Source: Erysipelotrichaceae bacterium (GTDB lineage Bacteria; Bacillota_I; Bacilli_A; RFN20; CAG-826). Taken from it: a stretch of DNA of 64,000 nt. Shown one piece after another: positions 2,496 to 36,576 of this stretch. The notes below the pieces were generated by a model. That model ran no database searches. It was given only the letters and a program-made list of their open reading frames with translations, and had not been told where the DNA came from. Where the stretch lies: the NCBI GenBank assembly GCA_015058945.1, contig SVBF01000001.1, positions 1 to 64,000 of the forward strand, written 5' to 3'. Every line of letters starts with the position of its first letter. Position 1 is the stretch's first letter. The position numbers and the translations under genes are program-made.

Positions 2496-4868
2496 ATGAA
2501 AAGAAACAAAGCATTGCTCATTCTTGCCGCTTCGTTTTTGCTCGTCTCCTGTGGCGAGGCGCCTGCCTCTTCCGCCGTTTCGTCCTCGGAAGAAGTCAGT
2601 AGCAGCGAAGAGGGCTCCAAAGAGATCGAAGGACTCGTCCGCAAGAACATCGAGGTCCGGATGGTCTCGCATTTCGGCGACGAGTTCGGCGAAAGCGAAT
2701 TCACCGACACTGCCCTTTATAGTGACTATTGGTTCCTCGACGATTCCAAAGAGGTCAACTATGAACTCGCGTTGATGTCCTCGATGGTCGATGGCGCCTC
2801 CTATGCCTCATCGAAGGAATCTCACGGCGAGAAGATCATCGAATTCCTCGACGATGCCGGATACCATGGCATTCAGCTTAACGAATATTACGACAAAGGG
2901 CTCTTCCTCGAAGATTCCATGGGCGCGATCATCGGCCGCAAGTCCATCAAGGACTATGACGGCAAAGAATACACTCTCCTCGCCGTCTTCCCCCGCAACG
3001 CCGGATATCACGACGAGTGGATGGGCGACTTCAACCTCGGCGCGGAAGGGATTCACGAAGACTTCCTCGAGATCCGCGACGAAACGCTTCGCTTCATGAA
3101 GCGCTACATCGCCGACAATGGCATCACCGGCGAACTCAAGGTTTGGAGCGCCGGCTATAGCAGGGGCGCCGCCACCGCCAACCTCCTCGGCGCCTTCCTC
3201 GCGGAGGACGTCGGCTATTTCGGCGATGACGTGAGTCTCGATCCCGAAAACCTCTTCGTCTATACCATCGCCACCCCGGCCGTCGCCCCTTCCGACCTAA
3301 ACAAGACTGAACTACTAAGTGTTTCCGGACCTCGTGGCGCGGGTTTTCACGACACCGATACCCCCGCCTTCGTCTATGCGGGCGAAGGCAAAGTCAACTT
3401 CGCCGATGAGCGCTACAAAGCCATCCATAACTTCGTCGGCGTCGGCGACTATGTCACGAAACTCCCGCCGCAAAACTGGAACTTCACCCGCTTTGGCGTG
3501 ACCGAGAACATACTCTATGGCAGCGAGGCGTTCCTCAAAAACCTCGAAAAGCTTAGCCCAGAGACCGCGGATACCTTCATCGGCGGCAAGAATTACGAGA
3601 CCGAACTGCCGAACAAGACCTTCGACATCGAGACCTGCACCATCGTCGATGTTGATTCCAAGCAATCCGCCAACGCGATGATCGACGAACGCCTGGCCAT
3701 CCTCATGGGCCTCGCCGGATCGCGCGAAGGCTACATCGAGAAAGGCTTTGATCGCCTTCTCGGCGGCGCGGCCGCGATCTTCGGCACCGATTGGAAAGGC
3801 TTCTTCGACGGCATCAAGGAAAACATCGGCGCCGCGGTGAAAGCCGGCATCCTCAATTACCTCGCCTATGCCCAAAAACAGTCGGGGTTAAGCGAAGCCA
3901 AGACCGCCGCCACGATCCTTAAGTCTCTCTTCGCCAAACAAGACGTCGCGCTCGACGCCTATACCGATCAGCAATTCCTCGCCGACTTCCTCGATTTCCT
4001 CATCAACGACTATCAGCAAGGCGGCAAGGCCTCGACGCGCGCTACCGTCCTTTCCGTCCTCATCCCCGCGCCCTATGGCAAGCTCTACATGGACTTGTTG
4101 AACTTCGCGAAGGACAATCAGATCACCGTGAAGACCGTCGACGAAGTCGTCTTGCTCCTCGCCAAGTTCGTCAGTGCGAACAAGACGGACGAGAACGTCA
4201 TCGCGCTGATCGAGGCCCTCGCCAAAGCGATTCCCTCGCAATACGCCTCCTTCCTTCCGATGATCGCTTCGGGGATCGGCAAGGATTACAGCGACCCCAC
4301 CCTCTACCCGGACGATTTCTCCAAGACTAAGGCGGCGATCGTCGACATCCTCGACGCCTGCGCTAACGGCGTCGACACGGAGGAGACGAAAATGAGTGCT
4401 TCCTACCTCCGCTATATGCTGATCAACATGGTCGGGACGTTTGCCTTCTCTGGAAAACAACACCTCATCGATCTGCTCGCCAACGGCACCCACGAAACCG
4501 ACGATACCACGGTGACCCGCGACCCCGTCGCCCTTGACCTGCTCCTCGAAGACGTCCTCGACCTCACTCTCCCTAAAGATAGCGAAGGCAAGCGCGTTCC
4601 CTTGAATAAGGCCGCCGACGATAGCCTCGTCGCTCTCCTCGATAAGGGCAGGACCGAGATCAACGGCATCTACGTCGATATCCTCAAACAGAGCCCGGAG
4701 ACGGTGCGCGAAATCATCTTCACCGTGTTATGCAACCCGGGCGAGAACTACGATGTCCGTCACGACATCGAAAGCGCCGTGACCTTCATCGACAAGATGC
4801 AGTTCCTCTTCCCCGCGCATAGCCACGAGATGTATATGTGCTACCTGAAGACGCAGATCAAAGCCTAA
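2496..4868 (+). CDS. Large lipoprotein with lipase/alpha-beta hydrolase motif
   Basis: A 790-residue lipoprotein. The signal peptide ends in the lipobox LVSC with Cys at residue 19, followed by a Ser/Glu-rich linker. Near residue 218 the sequence GYSRGA matches the nucleophile elbow GxSxG of lipases (class 3-like and related alpha/beta hydrolases), preceded by a predicted beta strand (LKVWSA). The last 400 residues are mostly helical and unrecognised. ATG at 2496 is chosen because it follows GAGGT and starts a proper signal sequence. It is probably a cell-surface lipid or ester hydrolase; the other catalytic residues could not be assigned by eye. Confidence 0.8.
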   Translation: MKRNKALLILAASFLLVSCGEAPASSAVSSSEEVSSSEEGSKEIEGLVRKNIEVRMVSHFGDEFGESEFTDTALYSDYWFLDDSKEVNYELALMSSMVDGASYASSKESHGEKIIEFLDDAGYHGIQLNEYYDKGLFLEDSMGAIIGRKSIKDYDGKEYTLLAVFPRNAGYHDEWMGDFNLGAEGIHEDFLEIRDETLRFMKRYIADNGITGELKVWSAGYSRGAATANLLGAFLAEDVGYFGDDVSLDPENLFVYTIATPAVAPSDLNKTELLSVSGPRGAGFHDTDTPAFVYAGEGKVNFADERYKAIHNFVGVGDYVTKLPPQNWNFTRFGVTENILYGSEAFLKNLEKLSPETADTFIGGKNYETELPNKTFDIETCTIVDVDSKQSANAMIDERLAILMGLAGSREGYIEKGFDRLLGGAAAIFGTDWKGFFDGIKENIGAAVKAGILNYLAYAQKQSGLSEAKTAATILKSLFAKQDVALDAYTDQQFLADFLDFLINDYQQGGKASTRATVLSVLIPAPYGKLYMDLLNFAKDNQITVKTVDEVVLLLAKFVSANKTDENVIALIEALAKAIPSQYASFLPMIASGIGKDYSDPTLYPDDFSKTKAAIVDILDACANGVDTEETKMSASYLRYMLINMVGTFAFSGKQHLIDLLANGTHETDDTTVTRDPVALDLLLEDVLDLTLPKDSEGKRVPLNKAADDSLVALLDKGRTEINGIYVDILKQSPETVREIIFTVLCNPGENYDVRHDIESAVTFIDKMQFLFPAHSHEMYMCYLKTQIKA

Positions 4869-4959: not shown

Positions 4960-6261
4960 ATGCTTCCGACCTTGATCATCTCCATCGTGACGTTCGTGTT
5001 GGTGACCCTATCGATCATCTTCTTTCCCTCGATTAAAATCGGGAAGGTTCGGCTCGATACCTATTGGATGGTCGCTTTGCTCGGCGCGGTGATTCTCATC
5101 GCCACGTCGTTGGCCCCGATGAACGAGGTACTGAATCAACTCGTCGCCCCCAATAGCATCAATCCGTTGAAGATCCTGATCCTCTTCTTCTCCATGACGA
5201 TCCTTTCGATCTATCTGGATGAAGTGGGGCTCTTTCGTTATTTGGCGTGCCTAGCGACGAAAAAGGCGGTAAAGAACCAATTCGGTCTCTTCCTCGTCCT
5301 CTACGCCTTGACGTCCGTCCTTACCTTATTCACATCCAACGACGTCGTGATTTTGACGTTGACGCCGTTCATTTGCTTCTTCGCCAAAAACGCGAAGATC
5401 AACCCGTTGCCCTTCCTCATCGCCGAGTTCGCCGCGGCCAACACGTGGTCGATGGCGCTGATCATCGGTAACCCCACGAACATCTATTTGGCCACTTCGG
5501 CGGGCATCACTTTCCTCGGTTACCTTAAGGTCATGATCGTCCCGACTTTATTCGCGGGCCTCGTGGAGTTTTCGCTCATCCTATTGATCTTCCATAAGCA
5601 ACTCCATCAGCCGATCCGGATCGAAAACGAGGAATACCGTATCGAAAGTCATTCCGATTTGGTCTTGGGGGTTAGCCTGCTCGTCGTCTGCTTGGTGCTG
5701 CTTACGGTTTCCAATTACGTCCATTTTGAGATGTGGATCGTCTCCGCGGCGTGCGCGGTCAGCTTGCTGCTTGGGGCGTTGATCCTCCGGTTAGTCACCA
5801 AGCGTCATTGGAATTATCTCGGCGACTCGTTCCGCCGCCTTCCCTATCCTTTGATCCCATTCATGCTTTCGATGTTCGTGATCGTCGTGGCGCTACATAC
5901 GCAGGGTATCTCCGCCGCGCTTGGGGAATGGTTGAACCGCGGCAACCCGATCTTCGTCTATGGATATGCCTCTTTCCTCGCGTCCAACGTCATCAACAAC
6001 ATCCCGATGAGCATCCTCTTCTCTTCGCTCCCCCAGGGGCTAGCGGAACCTTTGTACCGCCAAGCCGTCTATGCGAGCGTCATCGGCAGCAACATCGGCG
6101 CCTTCCTCACGCCGATCGGCGCCTTGGCGGGCATCATGTTCTCCTCGTTGCTCCATAAATACGAAGTGAAATACACCTTCCTCGACTTCACAAAATATGG
6201 GGCGATGATCGCCTTGCCCACGATCACCGTGGCGTTGCTCGGTCTCTTCTTGGTGCTTTAG
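4960..6261 (+). CDS. ArsB/NhaD-superfamily membrane transporter
   Basis: An integral membrane permease of about 433 residues with roughly 11 hydrophobic segments. Two signatures of the ArsB/NhaD/SLC13-like ion transporter superfamily are visible: TSNDVVILTLTPF near residue 125 and GNPTNIYLA near 170, each in a re-entrant-looking stretch. A related motif ASNVINNIPMS comes in the second half, as expected for an inverted-repeat fold. The substrate (arsenite, Na+/H+ or an organic anion) cannot be told. An in-frame TTG 12 nt earlier is an alternative start. The 3' end overlaps the convergent NERD gene by 4 nt. Confidence 0.8.
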   Translation: MLPTLIISIVTFVLVTLSIIFFPSIKIGKVRLDTYWMVALLGAVILIATSLAPMNEVLNQLVAPNSINPLKILILFFSMTILSIYLDEVGLFRYLACLATKKAVKNQFGLFLVLYALTSVLTLFTSNDVVILTLTPFICFFAKNAKINPLPFLIAEFAAANTWSMALIIGNPTNIYLATSAGITFLGYLKVMIVPTLFAGLVEFSLILLIFHKQLHQPIRIENEEYRIESHSDLVLGVSLLVVCLVLLTVSNYVHFEMWIVSAACAVSLLLGALILRLVTKRHWNYLGDSFRRLPYPLIPFMLSMFVIVVALHTQGISAALGEWLNRGNPIFVYGYASFLASNVINNIPMSILFSSLPQGLAEPLYRQAVYASVIGSNIGAFLTPIGALAGIMFSSLLHKYEVKYTFLDFTKYGAMIALPTITVALLGLFLVL

Positions 6262-6932
6262 AGCTTAAAGGAATAGCCGCATTTCGGGCAGCGGTATTCG
6301 TAACCATGGACCTCGATGCGCGCGTCGCAGCAAGGGCATAATCCCCGCTCAATCGCATAGGTCATCTCGGCCTCCTGCTCTTTCTTTACCTGCTTGATGA
6401 TGCGGATGTTCTCAACGTGCTCTTTGCGCGAAATGTCTGCGCCTACTGAGGCGATGAGCGACTTCATCTCGTCGAGTTCTTTTTGGCCATATTCCCGTTC
6501 AAAGGGATAGGAATCGATAAAAAGAGCGAGGTCTTGCAGGTTAATCACGTTTTCGTCGGGGAGATAGGGGGCGTTATCGCAGACGAAGACGACGACCGGG
6601 ATGGGCTTGTACTTGCTCTTCAACGCTTTCCTTAACGCGATCGCGTGCGATCTGTTCTGGCGTAGTGGATCAGAGATTTTGACCTTTTGACCGCGGATGG
6701 TTTTGTACCAGTAACCGGAAGCCTCATCGACCTCGATCTTGCCGAAATAGTTCTTGGTTTCGATGACGAAAAGGCCGTGGGGGTGGATTAAGACATGGTC
6801 GAGCTGATGGCTCATGCCTGAGGCGGCGTTGATGAGGGTAAGGTCATCGAAAAGATAGTGGGGCGCCTTTAGTTTTTTGATGAGGGCGCTGACTCTCTTT
6901 TCGCCTGAGGCGCCTCGACTCGCTCGCGACAT
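6258..6932 (-). CDS. NERD-domain protein with C-terminal zinc ribbon
   Basis: A 224-residue protein with a nuclease-related domain (NERD) at about residues 10-125. LDHVLIHPHGLFVIETKNYFG shows the D...ExK pattern of PD-(D/E)xK-like nucleases. The C-terminus carries CPCC...CPKC, a probable zinc ribbon. NERD proteins are thought to process DNA, but most are uncharacterised. The gene lies 3 nt after the Gly/Ser-rich zinc-ribbon membrane protein on the same strand, so the two are probably co-transcribed. Both have a C-terminal zinc ribbon. Confidence 0.82.
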   Translation of the reverse strand: MSRASRGASGEKRVSALIKKLKAPHYLFDDLTLINAASGMSHQLDHVLIHPHGLFVIETKNYFGKIEVDEASGYWYKTIRGQKVKISDPLRQNRSHAIALRKALKSKYKPIPVVVFVCDNAPYLPDENVINLQDLALFIDSYPFEREYGQKELDEMKSLIASVGADISRKEHVENIRIIKQVKKEQEAEMTYAIERGLCPCCDARIEVHGYEYRCPKCGYSFKL

Positions 6933-6935
6933 GTT

Positions 6936-7886
6936 TTAGATCTTCGGGGCGATGGAGTCGTTGAGCAACGCGCCGCACTTAGGACAACGGGCGACGGTGC
7001 CGGGGATATAGAGATTGCCGCAGTTGGGACAGGGGGCTTTGGTCGCGGAGGCTTCGATTCGGACCGCGTTTTGAAGCCCTTTGTTGCGCGACATGTTGAC
7101 GATGGTCGAGACGAGGGCGAAGGTGAGCGCGCCTTCCCATATGGCGATGAACGCCCACATGCCGGGCTGGATCTTGAAAGTCGTGTCCATCAGGTTCGGG
7201 AGGATGAGGTTGAAGGCGTCGTTAAGGGAAGCGGCGACGGGCTTACTCGCGGTGAGACTGTTATAGACCGATTCGTTGAAGCGCTTGGTGACGTCCTGGG
7301 TGAGGATGTTGTCGGTGTTGTTGCCCTGCATCCCCTCAAAGGCCCATTTCGCCCCGGTGGCGTTATCGTCGCTATAGACGATGAGCCAATGGGATTCGTC
7401 CTTGAAACGGTTGATGTAGGCGTCATAGGCATAACCTTGGAGGGAGGCATAATGGGTATTCCATACGCCGTTATCGACGGTGAGGACGCTCGGACAGATG
7501 CCGGAGACGGTGAAGAACTGGTCGAAGGTGGCCTTCAGCGTGGCTTCCTCTTCAGCGGTCATGACGTTTTGGTCGTCTTGGATGACGATGGTGGTGGAAT
7601 AGTCGGTGTTCAGCTTGGTGGGGTGGTGGTAACCGGAATAGAGAAAAATGCCGAGGCCGACCGCCATCATCAACGACATGATGACGATGCCGGCGACGTT
7701 GCCTTTGCCGTTAGGCTTATTGGGGTTATTCGTGTAGATGGTGCGTAGCCTTCCCCTCGGGGTGTAATAGGCGTAGCAAACCGCGCCGGGGAAATAACGG
7801 GTGGAAGTGCGGTAGGACGGGCCGCTATGGGAGGAACCGGACGAGAATCCGCCTCCGCTCGAGCCGCCGCCGGAAGAACGAGGCAT
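6936..7886 (-). CDS. Gly/Ser-rich two-TM membrane protein with zinc ribbon
   Basis: A 316-residue protein of unknown function. The first 25 residues are Gly/Ser low complexity. Hydrophobic segments lie near residues 62-85 and 243-265, with a soluble region of about 150 residues between them. The tail carries CPNCG...CPKCG. The central domain loosely recalls the TPM/YgcG phosphatase-like fold, but I cannot confirm it. The start is supported by AAGGAG 7 nt before ATG. It heads a two-gene unit with the NERD protein and diverges from the next lipoprotein gene. Confidence 0.7.
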   Translation of the reverse strand: MPRSSGGGSSGGGFSSGSSHSGPSYRTSTRYFPGAVCYAYYTPRGRLRTIYTNNPNKPNGKGNVAGIVIMSLMMAVGLGIFLYSGYHHPTKLNTDYSTTIVIQDDQNVMTAEEEATLKATFDQFFTVSGICPSVLTVDNGVWNTHYASLQGYAYDAYINRFKDESHWLIVYSDDNATGAKWAFEGMQGNNTDNILTQDVTKRFNESVYNSLTASKPVAASLNDAFNLILPNLMDTTFKIQPGMWAFIAIWEGALTFALVSTIVNMSRNKGLQNAVRIEASATKAPCPNCGNLYIPGTVARCPKCGALLNDSIAPKI

Positions 7887-28951: not shown

Positions 28952-29025
28952 GTTGTTTCGCTTGAAAAGCGCGTCAAGCCGTTTATATTTATGAAGCCCT
29001 CAGGGGCAACTGTTCTTTGACAAAT

Positions 29026-29423
29026 GGGGCCGTCATGGTTTTGACGGAGGAGAATCAACTTAATGGCTGCAGTGGTCTGGTAGACCTAAAGACCAAACCA
29101 AAATAACTGACAATAACGTCAAACCCTGGATGGTGAACAATCGTTCCGCCGTCCTCGCTCGCGCTTAATCTAGCACCCAACCATAGGTTCCGCAGTAGCG
29201 GACGAGCACGCTCCCCACGCTTTCTCACCCTGGGCGTGGACGAGTGCCATATAAAGGTGATCGCGGATTGACTCGGCTTAACTCAGTCCGTTAAATCTCC
29301 TTAGCCTCGCCTAGCGAATTCGACGTCGTTGCCGTCGCTAGGCTAGACATAACGACGCCTAAACTGTAGGCGCTGTTAGGGGGACTCCTTCGGACCTGGG
29401 TTCGATTCCCAGCGACTCCACCA
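29026..29423 (+). ncRNA. ssrA: Transfer-messenger RNA (tmRNA)
   Basis: The 398-nt RNA rescues stalled ribosomes. The 5' end GGGGCCGUCAUGGUUUUGACGG and the 3' end with T arm (CUGGG-UUCGAUU-CCCAG), acceptor CGACUCC and encoded ACCA are diagnostic. The acceptor stem pairs GGGGCCG with CGACUCC, with one C-A mismatch at the fifth pair. Helix P2 is supported by GCUGCAGU near the 5' side against ACUGUAGGC on the 3' side. The 3' third contains several stable stems, for example CCTAGCGA/TCGCTAGG at 29310-29342. A terminator follows. The 3' end is the target of repeated insertions (see the repeats downstream). Confidence 0.96.
29109..29168 (+). other. tmRNA proteolysis-tag reading frame
   Basis: By alignment with the UAACU that precedes the resume codon in Bacillus tmRNA, the resume codon is GAC at 29109. 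The tag reads DNNVKPWMVNNRSAVLARA and stops at TAA. With the alanine carried by tmRNA the tag is 20 residues. It ends LARA, not the usual LAA; the AD(x)N start resembles Mycoplasma tags. Confidence 0.85.
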
Positions 29424-29435
29424 TCAGTATCCGAG

Positions 29436-29465
29436 TCCCAAGTCATAGTTGACTTGGGATTTTTC
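29436..29465 (+). terminator. tmRNA terminator
   Basis: A 10-bp stem TCCCAAGTCA/TGACTTGGGA with loop TAGT is followed by TTTTTT. Related hairpins recur after the tmRNA fragment and at about 34.9 kb. Confidence 0.9.
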
Positions 29466-29595
29466 GTATTTTGGGTCCAAAAACGGCGACTAATTACTTG
29501 CGTTTTCAGATGGTAAAATACCCTTGCTTCGGAAAAAAGTGACTGGCATCCTAGCCGATCCAAGGACGAAGCGCAGTGCGCCAATTCAGAAGGAT

Positions 29596-30204
29596 ATGAT
29601 TGTAAGGGTTAATTATCTTGGATTCTTCCCACTAGGAGACGAAGCCACAATATCAAGCGTCCATTTTTTGAAGTGCCCTTGGAAAAGCATAAATGGCCTT
29701 GTCATTCCTATTGGAAAGAAGAAAGTTGTAAGCCCCATCTTTTGTTATCTGTTTTGCGCAGTTGAAAACGATGAAGCAGTTTTCTTTTTCGCTTTCGAAT
29801 ACGGCCTAGCCCATTACCATATTTATATTCCCAATGATAAATCGAAGAGCAGGCTGGAACGAAGATTTTCAACAGCCATCAAAGAACTCAAAACTTTATA
29901 CCGGGGCTTTAGCTCTAATCGAATCGTCGAATTCATGAGAGACAAGTATCTTCATGGTGACAAAGCGTTCATATCGGAAGATGGGAAGAGACGCGCGGTC
30001 ATTACTCTCAAAGAAGACTCATCGGTTGAAGTTGTGTTTGAGCGCCTCAACATATATTCCCCTGAAGAAACAATACACGCTTCCCTTCCGGGCTGTTGGC
30101 TTGAAGAGGGGCCGCACACGAGTTGTTATGATTCAATGGATCGTGCAATTAATGACCTCGGGCTAAATTCGCCAAAATGGGAAGAGTTGAACTTCAAACA
30201 ATGA
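29596..30204 (+). CDS. Hypothetical protein carried in the first tmRNA-linked unit
   Basis: About 202 residues from ATG 29596; an upstream in-frame TTG at 29524 would give 226. It has mixed alpha/beta character with no recognised motif. Its codon use and lower GC differ from the core genes. It lies alone between the tmRNA terminator and the 70-bp end element, which suggests it is the cargo of a small inserted unit. It could be a defence, immunity or toxin-type protein, but the sequence gives no evidence for any of these. Confidence 0.6.
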   Translation: MIVRVNYLGFFPLGDEATISSVHFLKCPWKSINGLVIPIGKKKVVSPIFCYLFCAVENDEAVFFFAFEYGLAHYHIYIPNDKSKSRLERRFSTAIKELKTLYRGFSSNRIVEFMRDKYLHGDKAFISEDGKRRAVITLKEDSSVEVVFERLNIYSPEETIHASLPGCWLEEGPHTSCYDSMDRAINDLGLNSPKWEELNFKQ

Positions 30205-30322
30205 TTAATGTGCAGCGAAGGCGGCTTTTACGTTTCTAACACCCGAGTTTGATTGTTCAAGGTGTGAGACCAAAAGCTCGAACGCCAAAATTTTCATAAA
30301 CACACAGCCATTTCTCTTAATA
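30205..30322 (+). other. Spacer between cargo gene and 70-bp end element
   Basis: I see no gene here. A minus-strand reading frame crosses it but has no RBS and runs through the 70-bp element. Confidence 0.4.
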
Positions 30323-30392
30323 GACCTCTCCAAAATCTGAGCAATCAAGAAACCGGACGCGGATACCGTCCAATACGGGGCGACTCCACCAT
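30323..30392 (+). repeat. 70-bp unit-end element, copy 1
   Basis: The element is 62/70 identical to a second copy at 33849-33918. It contains an inverted repeat GGACG-CGGATAC-CGTCC and ends in GGGGCGACTCCACCAT, whose last 12 bases equal the tmRNA acceptor end (CGACTCCACCA plus T). It lies 968 bp after the tmRNA 3' end. It looks like the far attachment junction of an element that inserted at the tmRNA 3' terminus. Confidence 0.8.
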
Positions 30393-30403
30393 TTAGTGCC
30401 ATT

Positions 30404-30437
30404 AGCTCCGGGATGATCCGGAGCTTTTCTTTCTTTG
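30404..30437 (+). terminator. Terminator just past the end element
   Basis: A perfect 8-bp stem AGCTCCGG/CCGGAGCT, loop GATGAT, then TTTTCTTTCTTT, only 12 nt after the tmRNA-like CCA. It could be the original tmRNA terminator, displaced by the insertion. Confidence 0.75.
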
Positions 30438-30451
30438 CAAGGACAAAATAC

Positions 30452-30580
30452 ATGGAAAAGAAACAATCTGGAAGGCTTACCACTCAGCATAAACAATCTC
30501 AAGGGATTATCGGCATTGTTTTGGAGATCATTTACGGCGTCTTTCCTACGCCAAACCCCGCAAAAAGCACCAATTTCTAA
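30452..30580 (+). CDS. Possible 42-residue peptide
   Basis: ATG with an AAGGA sequence 8 nt upstream encodes MEKKQSGRLTTQHK, then a hydrophobic stretch GIIGIVLEIIYGVF and PTPNPAKSTNF. It is a single-helix-like peptide, directly behind a terminator. It has no recognised family. From 30581 to 30722 I see nothing certain. Confidence 0.3.
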   Translation: MEKKQSGRLTTQHKQSQGIIGIVLEIIYGVFPTPNPAKSTNF

Positions 30581-30722
30581 AAAACGCGGCTGATGGAGTT
30601 CTAGCGAATAAGTGGGCGGTGCGAAAAGCCTTCTCCACTTTTTTGATGACCATTGGGAAAGAGAATGCCTTTGGGAGGACCGAGAGGGGATGACGCCAAA
30701 ATCGTTGGCCGTGGGGCCGCAT

Positions 30723-32654
30723 CTATTCCATGGCGAGGGTGACGATGGTGGGGATCAAGAAGGTGAGTATATACAAAGCGTAATAGAGGATGTTGGAGAC
30801 GTTGCTGCGGTTTTTCCCCGCCGGCTTATAGAAAAGAAGGAGGGGGATCAGACAGAAGATGAGGGTATGGTCATCGAGACGAAGGTACGTCCTGCCGCCG
30901 GAAGGCACGAGATAGAATATGGCCGTATAAATGGCGATGATGAGGCATAGGATCAGGTTCTTTTTGAATTGGACGCTGGGACGGCTCATCACTTCGTCGA
31001 CGTTTTCCTTGCCATAGCGTTTGGCAAGGAAGTGGCGGAAGAGGAAAAGTTCGAACAAGAACGCGATGCCGACGAACATGCCATCCACGTCGCGGACGAA
31101 GAAGAACGAGCTGACCCAATAATTGGGCGGGATGGCTTCGGCGCGGTAAAGGATCGAAAGGACGACGGACAAGATGGCGATGCCCGTGGGGATCAGCGAA
31201 AGAAGGCGGAACACCTTGCGCTTGACGAGCCATGATGGCGGGTCTTCGAACAAGAAGAAACCGATGAAGGCGAAAAGGCCCATCGACATGAAGATGTTGC
31301 CCGGTAGCATCTTGGAGAGGAATTGGGAGATGGTGATGCCCATGAAATCGGTTCTGATGGTCGAATCCAAGGCGAAGAACACCGAATTGACCGCAAGATA
31401 AAAGGTCACGGCCATGGTAAAGAACGCGGCGGCGGTGAAGGTCAGGTTGCGCCGCGTCTCGGCGATAATGCCGATAAGGGCGACGACCAAGAGGACTTGG
31501 CCCGCGGCGTTGATCATCTTGAACAACGGGTAGAGGTCTTCGACGGCGGGGGTGGCGAGGCTGGCGTCGATGATGTGCATGAAGATCGAGCCCAAGACGA
31601 TGAGGGCAAAGCCGACGCCGCGGATCACCCATTCGCCTAGCACCGGCCGGATATGCGTTTTGGCGCAGAAGCGCTCGATGGGGCCCTCCAAGATGACCGC
31701 GGCCCCTTTTCGTTCCTCCGGCGGCGGAAGGGTTGACGTTTCGATGCCAGGCAGGGTGACGAGGAGGTCTTCTCCTTCGCGTTCGGTGAGGGCACCTTCT
31801 TGGAGGAGGCGGCGCTTTTTCTTTTGGATGAGGAGGCGGGCTAAGCCCAAGATGAAGAGCATCGTGATCGGGCCGCCAAAGAAGGAGAGCACGGCGGCGA
31901 TGCTTAATAATCCAGAGCCCGCCTCGCTGGCTTCAAAACTGCGCTTGATGCCTTTGAACACGCTGTCCGAATGGACCCCAAAGCCGTCGATGACCGCTTT
32001 GGCTTTGGGAAAGAAATCGCGTAACAAACCTTCGGAGTTTTGGTTGATTTCCGCGATGATCTGGGGGTCGAGGTCGATGCCCCAATCGTCATAATAGTCG
32101 TGGTTGAGCTTTAATTCGCCTTGGATGGAGCAATCGTATTTGGTGCCCGCGTTGACCAGAAAGTAGTCATAGAAAACGTAAGGGGAGCCGTCGTTATGGA
32201 TGACGAGGGTTTGGGCGACAAAGACAAAATCATGGTCGTTCTGATAAGCGCGTTCGAGAAAGTGGCTTAGGGTTAGCCCAAGAACCAACCCATAATCTTC
32301 GTAGAGGACCTTGGTGGCGATGCCAAGGTAGTTGGAACAGAGGTTTTCGTTGCTGACGTAGACATAATAGGTTTCTTCGTCGAGGGTTCTTTCCGTACCG
32401 ACGAAGGACTTCCCGTAGAAGTCATAATCGATGAGGAAGGGGTCTTCGGCCTGCCCTTGGTCGATCACTTGCTTCCTCAGGGATTGGAAATCTTTGCCAC
32501 TAATTGCGGCGGGGTTGCTGTAGGAAACGCCCGTGACGGCAAAAAGGGTGGTGATGGCAAGGATGTAGACAAGACTGATGACGCCGAGGGAAATCACGCC
32601 CTTTTTGCTAAAGAAGGACGAAAAGACTTTCTTAAGAAAACCCTTTGCTTTCAC
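30723..32654 (-). CDS. Large polytopic membrane protein of unknown function
   Basis: A 643-residue protein. One N-terminal TM (about 20-42), an outside domain of about 190 residues, a TM, a cytoplasmic stretch of about 70 residues, and about eight further TM helices. Codon use and GC match core genes, so it is probably an original chromosomal neighbour, not cargo. The start is a GTG; TAGTAT on the minus strand (32666-32661) lies 6 nt before it with no RBS, another leaderless candidate. No family recognised. Confidence 0.7.
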   Translation of the reverse strand: MKAKGFLKKVFSSFFSKKGVISLGVISLVYILAITTLFAVTGVSYSNPAAISGKDFQSLRKQVIDQGQAEDPFLIDYDFYGKSFVGTERTLDEETYYVYVSNENLCSNYLGIATKVLYEDYGLVLGLTLSHFLERAYQNDHDFVFVAQTLVIHNDGSPYVFYDYFLVNAGTKYDCSIQGELKLNHDYYDDWGIDLDPQIIAEINQNSEGLLRDFFPKAKAVIDGFGVHSDSVFKGIKRSFEASEAGSGLLSIAAVLSFFGGPITMLFILGLARLLIQKKKRRLLQEGALTEREGEDLLVTLPGIETSTLPPPEERKGAAVILEGPIERFCAKTHIRPVLGEWVIRGVGFALIVLGSIFMHIIDASLATPAVEDLYPLFKMINAAGQVLLVVALIGIIAETRRNLTFTAAAFFTMAVTFYLAVNSVFFALDSTIRTDFMGITISQFLSKMLPGNIFMSMGLFAFIGFFLFEDPPSWLVKRKVFRLLSLIPTGIAILSVVLSILYRAEAIPPNYWVSSFFFVRDVDGMFVGIAFLFELFLFRHFLAKRYGKENVDEVMSRPSVQFKKNLILCLIIAIYTAIFYLVPSGGRTYLRLDDHTLIFCLIPLLLFYKPAGKNRSNVSNILYYALYILTFLIPTIVTLAME

Positions 32655-32708
32655 GGGAGAATACTACCATCAAACAAAAATAGAGAATAGCAAGCAGCAC
32701 ATCTTTGC

Positions 32709-32946
32709 GGTTCCGCAGCAGCGGACGAGCACGCTCCCCACGCTTTCTCACCCCGGGCGTGGATGAGTGCCATATAGAGGTGATGGTGGGCTGACTCGGC
32801 TTAACTCATCCCATGAGATCTCTTAGCCTCGCCTGGCGCATTGGGCACCGTTATCGGCGCTAGGTCAAACCACAACGACGCCTAAACTGTAGGCGCTGGT
32901 TGGGGGACTCCTTCGGACCTGGGTTCGATTCCCAGCGACTCCACCA
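32709..32946 (+). pseudogene. 3' fragment of a second tmRNA
   Basis: A 238-nt copy of the tmRNA 3' part (about 85% identical by eye to 29184-29423), starting just after the tag region and including the T arm, acceptor and CCA, and followed by the same type of terminator. It has no 5' half and no tag. Base changes are compensatory in at least two stems: CCTAGCGA/TCGCTAGG becomes CCTGGCGC/GCGCTAGG, and an A-T pair becomes G-C in the stem at 32788-32812. So the fragment derives from a functional tmRNA that diverged elsewhere, and not from a recent local duplication. Confidence 0.85.
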
Positions 32947-32958
32947 TCAGTATCCGAG

Positions 32959-32987
32959 TCCCAAGTCCTGACTGGCTTGGGATTTTT
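32959..32987 (+). terminator. Terminator behind the tmRNA fragment
   Basis: A 9-bp stem TCCCAAGTC/GGCTTGGGA (one G-T) is followed by TTTTT. It is homologous to the terminator of the intact tmRNA, so the duplicated block extends past the tmRNA end. Confidence 0.85.
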
Positions 32988-32994
32988 CGATATA

Positions 32995-33023
32995 TTGCGT
33001 ACATAAAAATGTACATATATAAT
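32995..33023 (+). promoter_or_regulatory. Promoter and YefM-type operator
   Basis: TTGCGT and TATAAT are separated by exactly 17 bp. The spacer holds an inverted repeat GTACAT-AAAA-ATGTAC (32999-33014), and ATGTACAT at 33009-33016 is itself a palindrome with the TGTACA core known from the Escherichia coli yefM operator. A degenerate core CGTACA lies 12 bp upstream. Binding of the antitoxin or the toxin-antitoxin complex here would block RNA polymerase. Confidence 0.8.
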
Positions 33024-33042
33024 GAGCGCGGAGGTTGGAAAT

Positions 33043-33294
33043 ATGCCTGTTACAAATGCTACCGCGCTGAGAAAAAACTTATTTGGAACCATTGAGAATG
33101 TTGTCGCCTACAACGAGCCTGTGACTGTGACTTCGAAATCCGGCAACGTCGTTATGATTTCCGAATCCGATTATAACGCCTTGATGGAGACAGTTTATTT
33201 GATGTCCAACCCCGCCTTTATGGAAGGCTACAAAGAAGCAAAGAAACAGGATCGCTCCACCTACGAAAAATTAAATTTGGACGAGGAGTGGTAA
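33043..33294 (+). CDS. YefM/Phd-family antitoxin
   Basis: An 83-residue antitoxin that neutralises the downstream RNase toxin and represses its own promoter. N-terminal MPVTNATALRKNLFGTIENV and VTVTSKSGNVVMISESDYNALMET are the Phd/YefM fold; the C-terminal GYKEAKKQDRSTYEKLNLDEEW is the toxin-binding tail. ATG 33043 is chosen because GGAGG lies 8 nt upstream; an ATG at 33022 falls inside the -10 box. The toxin gene follows after 3 nt. Confidence 0.9.
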   Translation: MPVTNATALRKNLFGTIENVVAYNEPVTVTSKSGNVVMISESDYNALMETVYLMSNPAFMEGYKEAKKQDRSTYEKLNLDEEW

Positions 33295-33297
33295 ACG

Positions 33298-33558
33298 ATG
33301 TACGAGGTTCTTTTCTCCAAAAGGGCCATCAAGGACCGGGAGCTTTTGAAATCCGCCGGCCTTTCCGAAAAGGCGAGGGCTCTTTGCAAAATTATTGCAG
33401 AGGATCCATTCCGCAATCCGCCACCCTATGAAAAGCTAGTCGGGGACCTAAGTGGATCCTATTCTCGCAGAATTAACGTCCAACACCGTCTCGTGTACGA
33501 TATCGACAAAGAAAAACACATCGTCTATGTCTTGAGGATGTGGTCTCATTGCAAATGA
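33298..33558 (+). CDS. YoeB/Txe-family mRNA-cleaving toxin
   Basis: An 86-residue RelE-fold endoribonuclease that cleaves mRNA in the ribosomal A site. The YoeB pattern is visible: YEKL (Glu45), SRRINVQHRLVY (Arg64) and the C-terminal RMWSH (His84). The usual last catalytic Tyr after His is Cys85 here, followed by Lys. The change might weaken the toxin or be tolerated. It pairs with the YefM-type antitoxin and sits in the second tmRNA-linked unit. Confidence 0.88.
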   Translation: MYEVLFSKRAIKDRELLKSAGLSEKARALCKIIAEDPFRNPPPYEKLVGDLSGSYSRRINVQHRLVYDIDKEKHIVYVLRMWSHCK

Positions 33559-33848
33559 GGGCATGAGCGGGTTATAGACCATTACGGTCAGATGCAAAAT
33601 GTAAGCAATTGTCCTTCACAAGAAGGAATCATTATTTCATTAGAGGATTTTTTGGCCGGCATCAACGATCGGACATCCGGCAAAGGGATAAAGCAAATCG
33701 ATTTTTATCTTCGAAACTATCCCCATTATCACAGTTGCTCAATTGGTCTCTATATCGATAAGTTCAATATCAATGGCGAAACAAGGCGCAACAATAAATA
33801 CTCGTTTCCACAATGAACCGAATTTCCGCTTGGTCTTTTTAGTAAGAC
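33559..33848 (+). other. AT-rich spacer in the second unit
   Basis: A 74-codon reading frame from ATG 33592 crosses this stretch but has no RBS and no recognisable domain; it may be a relic. Nothing else is evident. Confidence 0.35.
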
Positions 33849-33918
33849 GACCTTTCCAAAATCTAGGCAACCAGCAAACCGGACGCGGATACCGTCCAGA
33901 ACGGGGCGACTCCACCAT
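33849..33918 (+). repeat. 70-bp unit-end element, copy 2
   Basis: Same element as at 30323-30392, including the GGACG/CGTCC inverted repeat and the terminal CGACTCCACCAT. It lies 971 bp after the 3' end of the tmRNA fragment, so the YefM-YoeB genes occupy a unit of the same size and with the same ends as the first one. Confidence 0.8.
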
Positions 33919-34082
33919 CGTTAACAGCTTTATGCGAACACTTCTATGTCGATAGAAACATGTTCGGATTCACCCGCGACGCGACCGAATTAATGAAGAA
34001 GAACTGCCTCAAATTCGGTTATAAATACTATCGCGGAAAGAAAATCGAGGGGGCCTGAAATTGGCATCCCCTCTTTTCATTG
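33919..34082 (+). other. Possible gene remnant
   Basis: An open frame from 33918 to 34058 encodes a short Tyr/Lys-rich segment (MFGFTRDATELMKKN, then KFGYKYYRGKK) and ends TGA. No start signal is seen. It may be the tail of a decayed gene cut by insertion of the 70-bp element, but I do not recognise it. Confidence 0.3.
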
Positions 34083-34517
34083 TTAGGCGTATTTGGGTTC
34101 GCCATATTCCCTTTTCATTGCTTTTGTTGAGACGACCCACTGTTTGCCGTATTTGCAGGCATCGACGCCTGCTTTTAGCTTTCCATATGCTATTGCTTTG
34201 CGGAGCGTCGATTCGTTGAGACCCCACATCCTGGTAGCCTCGACGAACGCGACGAGCCCGTCGAATGGTGTGGCAATATCGGCTCCGCCGTAGAAAAGCT
34301 CTTCGCAAGAAAGGTCTATTTCATCATTCCAAATGACCCCGTATCCCCCTGGGCCAACATGGGCCTTCTCGAACAGGTCGTTTTCCTTGAGTTGCTGGAA
34401 AACGGGAATCTCGTCGAAAACGGGTTTGACGTCATATATTTTGCTTACTCCCTCGACGAATTGGGCGAGCAAGCGGTAGTCCTCTAAAGGGACGACATGG
34501 TTAAGTTTGTGGAACAT
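34083..34517 (-). CDS. DUF2442 protein with C-terminal excisionase-like HTH
   Basis: A 144-residue protein. Residues 1-85 resemble DUF2442 (VVPLEDYRLLAQFVEG, GGYGVIWNDEIDLSCEELF). The C-terminal third is a MerR/excisionase-type helix-turn-helix (ATRMWGLNESTLRKAIAYGKL). ATG 34517 has GGAGG upstream. It is the second gene of a pair with DUF4160, 16 nt downstream of it. This pairing occurs widely next to mobile elements and is suspected to act like a toxin-antitoxin module; the HTH would then be the autoregulator. Function not proven. Confidence 0.78.
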   Translation of the reverse strand: MFHKLNHVVPLEDYRLLAQFVEGVSKIYDVKPVFDEIPVFQQLKENDLFEKAHVGPGGYGVIWNDEIDLSCEELFYGGADIATPFDGLVAFVEATRMWGLNESTLRKAIAYGKLKAGVDACKYGKQWVVSTKAMKREYGEPKYA

Positions 34518-34533
34518 TGCTTTTCCTCCTGGA

Positions 34534-34788
34534 TTACTCAAGCGGTTTGATCTTTCCGATCTTGCCGGTTTCCCACATTTCAGCAAGCTCTGAACGATGG
34601 ATCTCCATCCACTCCCGCACTAGTCGCAACGCACGATTGGGGAGCTCCCCTTCGAGGATGTCCCCATTTTCGATGATAAGCGTCGCGTTATGCTCTCCAT
34701 ACGATGCATGGATGTGGGGCGGATTGTGCTCGCGGGGCTTGTGATACATGTAGATGACGATTCCGTAGAATGCGGCTAACAGTGGCAT
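34534..34788 (-). CDS. DUF4160 protein
   Basis: An 84-residue protein with the DUF4160 signature HNPPHIHASYGEHNATLIIENG and GELPNRALRLVREWMEIHRSEL. The start ATG 34788 follows AGGAGG with 8-nt spacing. First gene of the two-gene DUF4160/DUF2442 unit. Its role is not established in the family. Confidence 0.85.
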   Translation of the reverse strand: MPLLAAFYGIVIYMYHKPREHNPPHIHASYGEHNATLIIENGDILEGELPNRALRLVREWMEIHRSELAEMWETGKIGKIKPLE

Positions 34789-34881
34789 TGGTCTATCCTC
34801 CTGACATAATAAATATATCACGGAAGCGTGATAAATTCAATGCTATTGCCTTGTGTATATCTGCAAAACGTATGCAACGGA

Positions 34882-34925
34882 CCACCATTGCGAACAAATC
34901 CCAAGTCATAAGCGGCTTGGGATTT
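34882..34925 (+). repeat. Decayed tmRNA 3'-end/terminator relic
   Basis: CCACCAT is followed, after 10 nt, by a hairpin AAATCCCAAGTC/GGCTTGGGATTT that closely matches the terminators of the tmRNA and of the tmRNA fragment (CCACCAT, 11 nt, TCCCAAGTC there). There is no tmRNA body. The CCA ends 970 bp after the end of the second 70-bp element. It looks like a third, degraded junction. Confidence 0.6.
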
Positions 34926-35394
34926 CCCAGCAGATTAAATTAGCCTATTTCAAAATCGGCAAAAGAGTCATTTTTGAAAGCAAACATAGTGTTGCTTGAA
35001 TCTTTGCTCGGCTTTCCCAAAGTGGGTTTATCCATTTATGGATTTGCTTTTGTTCATAAACCGGCACATTGATTAAGCTCTTGGGATTAAGCCTGCCCTT
35101 GGGATTATTGGTCAAACACCAATAAGCACATATCTTATCGGTTACCAACAAAAATGTTGTCAACAAAAATGTTGGGAACATTAAAACCAGTGAAAGGGAA
35201 CACAAAAAGCAAAAAATATGACGGACGCATTGAGATCTTAATAACCCCGGGTCGTTTGATTATCAGCGTTTTTTTCTTTTCACCGGAACGGGTTTGAACC
35301 ACCCTATCTTATTGCGACCACTGAGTATGCTCGAAAACATCCTGCCGAGACCTTCCTTTATCGCTCTCAGGGGTTCGGGTGTGTCTCTTCCGCA
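34926..35394. other. AT-rich remnant region
   Basis: No convincing gene. A minus-strand frame at 34945-35205 lacks an RBS. The stretch contains a tandem palindrome (separate entry) and, at its end, in-frame codons leading into the WYL fragment. It is probably decayed mobile-element DNA. Confidence 0.5.
35145..35173. repeat. Tandem palindrome CAACAAAAATGTTG x2
   Basis: Two identical 14-bp imperfect palindromes separated by one base. The arrangement resembles a double operator, but no gene start is close on either strand, so it may be a relic. Confidence 0.6.
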
Positions 35395-35598
35395 GGCTTT
35401 ACTCATTGGCAGACCATCGAGCAGATCGACGAGAACACGATCAAAGTTTCGCTAGATATGCAAAACGAAGGCGCGATCGTGAGTTTTGCCCTAGGCTGCG
35501 GACTCGATTTGTATATTCTGTCCCCGGATTGGCTCAAAGAACGTGTGCGTGACGTGGCTAAGGAACCAGCCGCGCGGTACGACACCGAAGCGAATTAA
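35395..35598 (+). pseudogene. C-terminal fragment of a WYL-domain transcriptional regulator
   Basis: Sixty-seven codons to a TAA encode THWQTIEQIDENTIKVSLDM, then FALGCGLDLYILSPDWLKERV, the C-terminal part of WYL-domain regulators (the strand before the final helix, and the L(S/E)P-W-L motif). The HTH and most of the WYL core are missing and no start is visible, so this is a broken gene. Confidence 0.7.
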
Positions 35599-35682
35599 CT
35601 CATCAATTGGAAGAACAATCCAGCCTTGTTTTACTGGATTACATAAGACCAAATACCAAGACTGTTTTCCGTGCACATTCAT

Positions 35683-35708
35683 TTACAAAAAGATTACATT
35701 GTCTTACA
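35683..35708 (+). promoter_or_regulatory. Three phased TTACA repeats upstream of the RelB-type gene
   Basis: TTACA occurs at 35683, 35694 and 35704, that is, about one helical turn apart, 26-51 bp before the antitoxin start. They could be binding sites for the antitoxin (autoregulation); this is inference. Confidence 0.35.
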
Positions 35709-35733
35709 AATGAAATACGGAAGGTGAAGGAAA

Positions 35734-36033
35734 ATGGCTATTGTTCAATTTAGAGTCGAAGACGAATTAAAAAAGGAGGCCGCTTTTGTGTTCGAGAGAT
35801 TAGGCTTGGATTTGTCTTCTGCGATGAGGCTCTTTTTGAGGCGGTCCGTCGATTGTAAAGGCATACCTTTTCCAATGACGCTATCGGAAAACGCATACCA
35901 AGCTACCGAAGCCGCTAACATTATGAGGGAATCCCAAGACATTTCGGCCAAAAACGGCAATTCCGAAATGACTCTTGAGGAAATAAATAAGGAAATCGCT
36001 CTCGCCCGAGCCAAGAGGAGAAAAAGAGAGTGA
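35734..36033 (+). CDS. RelB/DinJ-family antitoxin, apparently orphan
   Basis: A 99-residue protein. The N-terminal IVQFRVEDELKKEAAFVFERLGLDLSSAMRLFLRR is the ribbon-helix-helix DNA-binding domain of RelB/DinJ. The tail is Lys/Arg-rich where the toxin-binding segment should be. GGTGAAGG serves as RBS. No RelE/YafQ toxin follows: the next frame (GTG overlapping the stop) has no toxin motif and is crossed by an antisense gene and terminator. It may be a remnant of a toxin-antitoxin pair. Confidence 0.82.
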   Translation: MAIVQFRVEDELKKEAAFVFERLGLDLSSAMRLFLRRSVDCKGIPFPMTLSENAYQATEAANIMRESQDISAKNGNSEMTLEEINKEIALARAKRRKRE

Positions 36034-36061
36034 CTTTTTATGCCACCATTGATGCCGGCAT

Positions 36062-36085
36062 AAAAAAAGCCGCGCAATCGGCGGC
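36062..36085 (-). terminator. Terminator of the 38-residue acidic gene
   Basis: On the minus strand GCCGC-CGATTGC-GCGGC is followed by seven T residues. It lies 38 nt past the stop of the small minus-strand gene and marks that gene as real. Confidence 0.75.
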
Positions 36086-36122
36086 CATGGATATCTGTGT
36101 TTCTCGCGGTATCGCTCGGACT

Positions 36123-36239
36123 TTAGTCTTCGTAATACTCGTGGTCCTCGGGGTAACCGAGTTCCTCATCGAGGCTCTCGTCAGAGAAGATCGCTTCAAT
36201 GCTGCTGAGCTCGTTGCTATACCTTTCTTCGTTTTCCAT
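36123..36239 (-). CDS. Small acidic protein, 38 residues
   Basis: MENEERYSNELSSIEAIFSD, then ESLDEELGYPEDHEYYED: nearly half the residues are Asp/Glu. RBS AGGAGG with 8-nt spacing precedes ATG, and a terminator follows. No family recognised. Acidic proteins of this size include DNA mimics and anti-restriction factors, but also ordinary hypothetical proteins. It lies antisense to the frame that follows the orphan RelB. Confidence 0.55.
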   Translation of the reverse strand: MENEERYSNELSSIEAIFSDESLDEELGYPEDHEYYED

Positions 36240-36576
36240 TGTTCTTGCCTCCTGTATCGGTGACTTTTTCGCCAAGCTCTTTCGCTTGGTTCACATGAAT
36301 ATAGGCCTTTTAAAAAACTAAGTAAGAGGGAATGCATCATTTGAAACCGCTTTCTTGAAAAATGCCGAAAAATTCCGATGAACACTGAATTTTCAGTTTC
36401 GTTAAATCTTAGAAAAGTACAAATATAAGAAAACGAATTCTTTCGATGGAATCCATAGAAAACAAAGGTGAAAAACGGGAAGCCCTTACAATGATGTGAA
36501 TTGGATAAAACCGCCCGATTTCGTTATTTTCAATTGGACGGCGCGGGAAAGCGGTGGGGGCGATATAATTATGCCG
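36240..36576. other. Intergenic stretch at the right edge of the accessory region
   Basis: It holds the promoter side of the small acidic gene and, at 36564-36569, a TATAAT box for the next plus-strand gene. Composition is AT-rich up to about 36490. I see no gene or repeat. Confidence 0.5.

Follow-up and report, generated by a model that had tools for sequence, protein, structure and literature searches.

The gene for transfer-messenger RNA (tmRNA), ssrA, is present in nearly all bacteria as a single copy and is a favoured landing site of mobile DNA. Ends of inserted elements reportedly serve as ssrA terminators, a point said to have been made by Williams in 2003 under the title 'Traffic at the tmRNA gene', and the left end of the cassettes described below seems to do the same. 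We analysed an ssrA locus of an Erysipelotrichaceae bacterium belonging to a rumen Bacilli genus, within a stretch of 64,000 nucleotides (the window; contig SVBF01000001.1, positions 1 to 64,000), in which the intact gene (copy L) is followed by the 3' half of a second ssrA gene (copy R, 32709-32946). Copy R is probably the relic of a second complete ssrA; two copies would once have flanked a gene for a 643-amino-acid (aa) protein, with different genomes losing different copies.

Tandem ssrA islands, displaced fragments and tmRNA pseudogenes are already known (PMC3146451, PMC4383910, PMC4131195). The tandem ssrA islands of Dehalococcoides are built on a 20 bp repeat, and many of them encode the serine recombinase DsiB (McMurdie 2011, PMC3146451). 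As in those islands, some units of which are without an integrase module, the repeated ssrA 3' terminus (core) and a conserved upstream motif (arm) stand at unit boundaries, here at 14 sites in 8 of the 31 genus genomes compared and at none with a reversed control pattern. The units at the present locus differ in being only ~1-2.5 kb long, in carrying toxin-antitoxin or single genes and long ssrA halves, and in having no integrase in the units examined. Islands integrated at ssrA, with tmRNA as their most favoured target, likewise show an intact target gene and a fragment in direct orientation. In those islands the displaced fragment marks the crossover of an integrase-bearing island, whereas here it is 238 nt long, has a 5' border that varies between genomes, and no integrase lies between the two ends. 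Known tmRNA pseudogenes also appear as a second tmRNA call without one end beside a working gene, but the relatives studied here reveal the complete source locus of the relic and other species have lost the opposite copy. The likeness to integron gene-cassette arrays (small units, toxin-antitoxin cargo and a shared junction resembling a recombination site) is one of layout only, the present array being anchored at ssrA with no integrase at the locus.

New here are the very small units without an integrase and a duplicated ssrA of which opposite copies have been lost in related species. The locus adds an array of very small integrase-less cassettes at ssrA. With a landing site that seems to bring extra ssrA copies, and with species keeping different ones, such a genus would offer a test of the replacement of a ribosome-rescue RNA by horizontal transfer.

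The second ssrA 3' half and its functional history

All 238 nt of R align to 29186-29423 of L at 87.3% identity (207/237, 2 gap columns), which bears out the original prediction of a tmRNA 3' half matching the intact gene without a tag or 5' half. L and R were the only ssrA-like sites in the 1.46-Mb genome (E = 1e-97 for the match between them), no 5' half other than that of L was found in it, and R has neither the tag nor the 5' acceptor strand. The T-arm and CCA of R are intact and the pseudoknot stems and tRNA-like 3' end are retained, while both acceptor strands together with a tag frame, as expected of a functional ssrA, are not present. No promoter-like site was recognised before R, and the fragment most likely makes no functional RNA now. 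A two-piece (permuted) tmRNA was rejected, since the genome holds no separate 5' piece and has an intact one-piece gene. The Rfam match of R reaching back to 32511 (48.3 bits) and the ARAGORN 'tags' for both window copies were artefacts running into the neighbouring 643-aa gene. In four relatives ARAGORN called a tag homologous to that of L (VKPWM.., offset 83). Across the genus the tag has a conserved VKPWM and a terminal ARA or ACA instead of LAA, and its first residue seems to be Asp.

Copy R was once part of a working tmRNA, as indicated by its score in a genus model, its covarying pairs and a number of broken pairs too low for neutral drift; the original prediction had placed it under selection inside a functional tmRNA, and these results agree. 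Covariance-model scoring of both copies, which had been proposed as a check, was carried out with a model of the pseudoknots PK3 and PK4, for which 12 other ssrA genes from the genus, and neither window copy, served as training sequences. R scored 96.7 bits, above the 87.6 bits of L, and decayed or foreign copies scored lower (e.g. 54.5 bits for the fragment in genome G005). Both covarying pairs quoted earlier are real (A-T to C-G in PK4 and A-T to G-C in PK3), and a third pair changed on both sides, C-G versus T-A, was found in PK3. In simulations of random changes, at least three double-covarying pairs occurred with P 0.002-0.009, and the 2 broken pairs compare with a mean of 8.6 (P 0.001-0.002). 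When the stem changes were polarised by G017 and G043, those of the L lineage had broken no pair, and those of the R lineage had broken one PK3 pair and two pairs in the second PK4 helix and altered two sites in the 3' strand of helix H2. R was thus a functional RNA during most of the time since it diverged from L, and its decay set in later.

Opposite copy losses in relatives and the origin of copy R

In the relative G041 the neighbours of R, the 643-aa gene (95.7% nucleotide identity) and a yefM-yoeB cassette (94.8%), enclose a complete ssrA that has a leader of its own. Similarity between G041 and the window ends at window position 32707, immediately before the start of R, and some DNA that separates the 643-aa gene from ssrA in G041 is missing from the window, as after a deletion. 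What G041 has at the ancestral place of ssrA, beside the same upstream genes, is a 5' piece of 216 nt that runs directly into the end of the 643-aa gene. In G002 only 38 nt of that copy are left, joined to DNA before the 643-aa gene. The copy losses in the window and in these relatives are mirror images. The simplest common state would be two complete ssrA genes around the 643-aa gene, of which the downstream one was lost here and the upstream one in G041 and G002.

Several points weigh against this account. In G041 each flank of the 643-aa gene is on a contig of its own that breaks off within the gene, so that their adjacency is reconstructed, and in G002 the right side is unassembled, leaving its right-hand copy out of view. 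The R copies of the window genome (G000) and G041 are ~69% alike in their middles against ~95% expected if the 643-aa gene and ssrA had moved as a unit, so the account also needs either gene conversion from the resident copy or flanks that arrived independently. The simulation of stem pairs was simplified in that all changes were laid on one lineage.

The neighbouring units have evidently moved between species recently. Synonymous divergence (dS) was 0.055-0.087 for the 643-aa gene (to G041 and G002), 0.075 for yefM-yoeB to G041 and 0.037 for the DUF2442 gene to G018, against 1.1-1.4 for uvrA of G017, G041 and G002, the last of which falls in another clade of the uvrA tree. The proposal that R was brought in with an integrated element is correct in that R adjoins horizontally moving DNA (dS 0.06-0.09 versus 1.1-1.4 for uvrA), while its attribution to a foreign lineage found no support. 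In a tree of 3' halves R and L were sisters (99/99 support) within the clade of G017, G043 and G041, and import from another lineage was not shown. The original prediction had set against itself a tree with the two 3' halves as sisters and substitutions scattered at random inside and outside stems; the sisterhood was found and the randomness was not. The distance between L and R was 0.14 per site, with an L branch of 0.055 compared with ~0.115 per lineage to G017. The two copies diverged long before the neighbouring DNA was transferred, so R may stem from a closely related sister species or represent an old paralog.

That the 3' half once belonged to the tmRNA of a species not yet sampled, which branched off after G017, and arrived with the 643-aa and yefM-yoeB DNA in a mobile unit, is a credible explanation with somewhat less than an even chance. 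The L branch is about half the per-lineage distance to the G017 split, and the L-R divergence much predates the arrival of the neighbours (dS ~0.08 versus 1.1). In G165 an ssrA 3' half has crossed genera together with the gene downstream of it, and G024 carries a foreign 5' piece. Against this, R is sister to the resident gene and has a derived T-arm pair in common with it, and the orphan pieces of G018 and G041 are likewise kin of their resident genes, which argues against a distant donor. No source closer to R than L was found among the 31 genus genomes or the 196 family genomes searched for one. Viral contigs, also searched for the source of the fragment, gave no arm and core pattern and no match to the 643-aa protein.

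The sisterhood of R and L, the functional history of R and a divergence older than the inserted DNA would also suit two complete working ssrA copies that persisted for long, the 643-aa gene and the cassettes having entered later, both in the space between the copies and behind them. This is possible and rather doubtful, as no genome among the sampled relatives has two complete ssrA genes and lengthy redundancy is unusual for a single-copy gene.

It is improbable that R is instead the original 3' half of the host and that the present 3' half of L came with an element crossing over at the hairpin after the tag. The homology does begin exactly at this hairpin (GGTTCCGC), and the host 5' half joined to R would rebuild a full-length gene. 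However, helix H2 is fully paired between the 3' half of L and the host 5' half, and R has two changed sites there; the fragments in G005, G018 and G165 begin elsewhere, so the crossover site is not fixed. The DNA between the 643-aa gene and ssrA in G041 fits a deletion in the window instead. A C-A mismatch in the acceptor stem of L, which had been taken as fitting a mosaic origin, is real (pair 5, 29026-29032 / 29413-29419) and is found in 19 of 24 ssrA genes of the genus, so it is no sign of a mosaic. The attachment site may constrain this mismatch, as the 3' strand of the acceptor is identical to the cassette core.

A plain dead tandem duplicate under random drift is very improbable, since the sisterhood of R and L, the missing promoter and some broken pairs are outweighed by too few broken pairs, too many covarying ones and a higher model score than the working copy has. 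The argument that a dead local duplicate would not covary overlooked a second complete copy that worked until it was truncated, as seen in G041. A 3' fragment with covarying stems is not necessarily foreign and may be a second copy that was working until recently.

Cassettes at the ssrA 3' end

A second repeat pair, missed in the original prediction, is located at 30323-30392 and 33849-33918 (89% identical), each member ending in the tmRNA 3' terminus and the two being spaced 3.52 kb apart, as L and R are. The core GCGACTCCACCA is the last 12 nt of the tmRNA and has 4 exact copies in the window against 0.37 expected with up to one mismatch allowed. The order of the region is L and core, cassette 1, arm and core, terminator B and the 643-aa gene, R and core, cassette 2, arm and core, and the DUF2442/DUF4160 unit. 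The two cassettes of ~970 bp, one after L and one after R, each close with a conserved arm and GCGACTCCACCA. The last 181 bp of cassette 1 have 97.8% identity to a cassette end in G041, and DNA related to the DUF2442/DUF4160 unit is directly 3' of ssrA in G018 (98.7% over 622 nt), G020 and G021. The 643-aa protein had no match in Pfam, NCBIfam or PADLOC.

The same junction recurs in the relatives and consists of the arm CGGACGCGGATAYCGTCCNNNACGG, the core, the left end YCAGTATCCG and a terminator hairpin. The CGGATACCG of the arm and the CAGTATCCG of the left end are inverted repeats flanking the core. Homology between L and R had been said to include the terminator; the homology is real, and the terminator of R belongs to the following cassette, being the left end in a family of mobile cassettes. 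The same left end also stands after cores without a tmRNA and the R terminator resembles that of the G041 yefM-yoeB cassette, so the terminator is no sign of joint import.

The arm and core pattern, sought in 84,980 species genomes, turned up only in metagenome-assembled genomes of uncultured Bacilli or 'Erysipelotrichaceae', and the names of several mark them as rumen isolates. Downstream of its ssrA, G041 carries at least three arm junctions in tandem. In the window, the intact gene and a fragment in the same orientation bound horizontally acquired DNA, which is the layout of a displaced fragment, and the integrase that would go with it was not found: the main genes between L and R include no integrase domain and the tyrosine recombinases of the genome are located elsewhere. 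Large serine recombinases accompany the arms (7 of 8 genomes with arms versus 3 of 23 without, P 0.0003), which recalls the Dehalococcoides islands, though these enzymes are diverse, mostly 24-49% alike, and on contigs other than those of the arms. This co-occurrence is only a lead, as no large serine recombinase was found in the assembly of the window genome. One shared serine recombinase as the common integrase was considered and left as a lead, the proteins not forming one family.

The ssrA 3' end in this genus is an insertion point for small integrase-less cassettes bounded by GCGACTCCACCA, presumably joined by site-specific recombination at the core with an enzyme encoded elsewhere. If R is the relic of a second complete ssrA, a unit of the 643-aa gene and a complete ssrA (30392-32946) would have come to sit downstream of the resident ssrA, so that two complete copies bracketed the 643-aa gene, as the three genomes suggest. 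One copy would then have sufficed. Here the upstream copy was apparently kept and the downstream one lost its promoter and 5' half, probably by ordinary deletion; in G041 the downstream copy would have been kept and the upstream one truncated, and in G002 the 38 nt would be the remains of the upstream copy. The 3' end of R persists as the junction of the yefM-yoeB cassette. R is stranded where small mobile cassettes keep inserting at the ssrA end. A tentative extension is that a complete promoter-bearing ssrA travels as a cassette with its own 3' end as attachment site, inserts beside the resident gene and sometimes replaces it; G041 would then be a finished takeover and the window genome a failed one.

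Features of the locus and further observations

Table 1. Features of the ssrA region in window coordinates
Feature	Position	Strand	Basis and remarks
Promoter-like site of L, TTGAAA-16-TATATT	28962-28989	+	10/12 matches; regional count not above chance, position suits the gene
Intact ssrA, copy L	29026-29423	+	Rfam RF00023, 128.7 bits; upstream neighbours common to relatives
Tag reading frame D-NNVKPWMVNNRSAVLARA* in L	29109-29168	+	Seen in the sequence itself; relatives have a homologous tag at this offset; missing from R
Cassette 1: terminator, 226-aa gene (family unknown, 29524-30204), right arm, core	29424-30391	+	Bounded by two cores
Right arm CGGACGCGGATACCGTCC..ACGGG and core GCGACTCCACCA (core 30380-30391)	30323-30391	+	Repeat and junction comparison
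Putative third unit: terminator B, 643-aa gene, ssrA copy R	30392-32946		Core positions at both ends; suggested by relatives
643-aa protein gene, family unknown	30723-32654	-	Shared with G041 and G002, 93-96% aa identity
Second ssrA 3' half, copy R	32709-32946	+	Hairpin after the tag through CCA; final 12 nt are the attachment core
Cassette 2: terminator (stem 32959-32982), yefM, yoeB, right arm and core (33849-33917)	32947-33917	+	95% identical DNA in G041
yefM antitoxin	33022-33294	+	Pfam PF02604/PF06769 matches for yefM-yoeB
yoeB toxin	33298-33558	+	Pfam PF02604/PF06769 matches for yefM-yoeB
Start of a further mobile unit: DUF2442/helix-turn-helix (HTH) gene (34083-34586), DUF4160 gene (34534-34821)	33918-34821	-	Related DNA after ssrA in relatives

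Past the last arm, positions 33918-36400 hold more small mobile-looking genes (DUF2442/HTH, DUF4160 and RelB).

Orphan ssrA 3' pieces with differing 5' borders were located in G005 (locus L036, 3860-4010), G018 (L051, 4712-4851) and G044 (L115, ~4172-4236). The foreign ssrA 5' piece of G024 (L108, 298-415) has its own leader, is nearest to G017 and lies just past the terminator of the resident ssrA. In G165, a member of another genus, an ssrA 3' part (L186, 5009-5186) has 93% identity to that of G008 and is accompanied by the gene downstream of ssrA in G008, coding an 809-aa glycosidase-like protein (5317-7746), beside an rpsF-ssb region. The quite different native ssrA of G165 follows ~12 kb after this tail, and the case is one of cross-genus transfer of an ssrA tail. 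Recurring cargo between arm junctions included a pair of genes for a putative small sigma factor and a membrane protein, present in G041 (L107, 5356-7284) and G010 (L117, 1957-3848).
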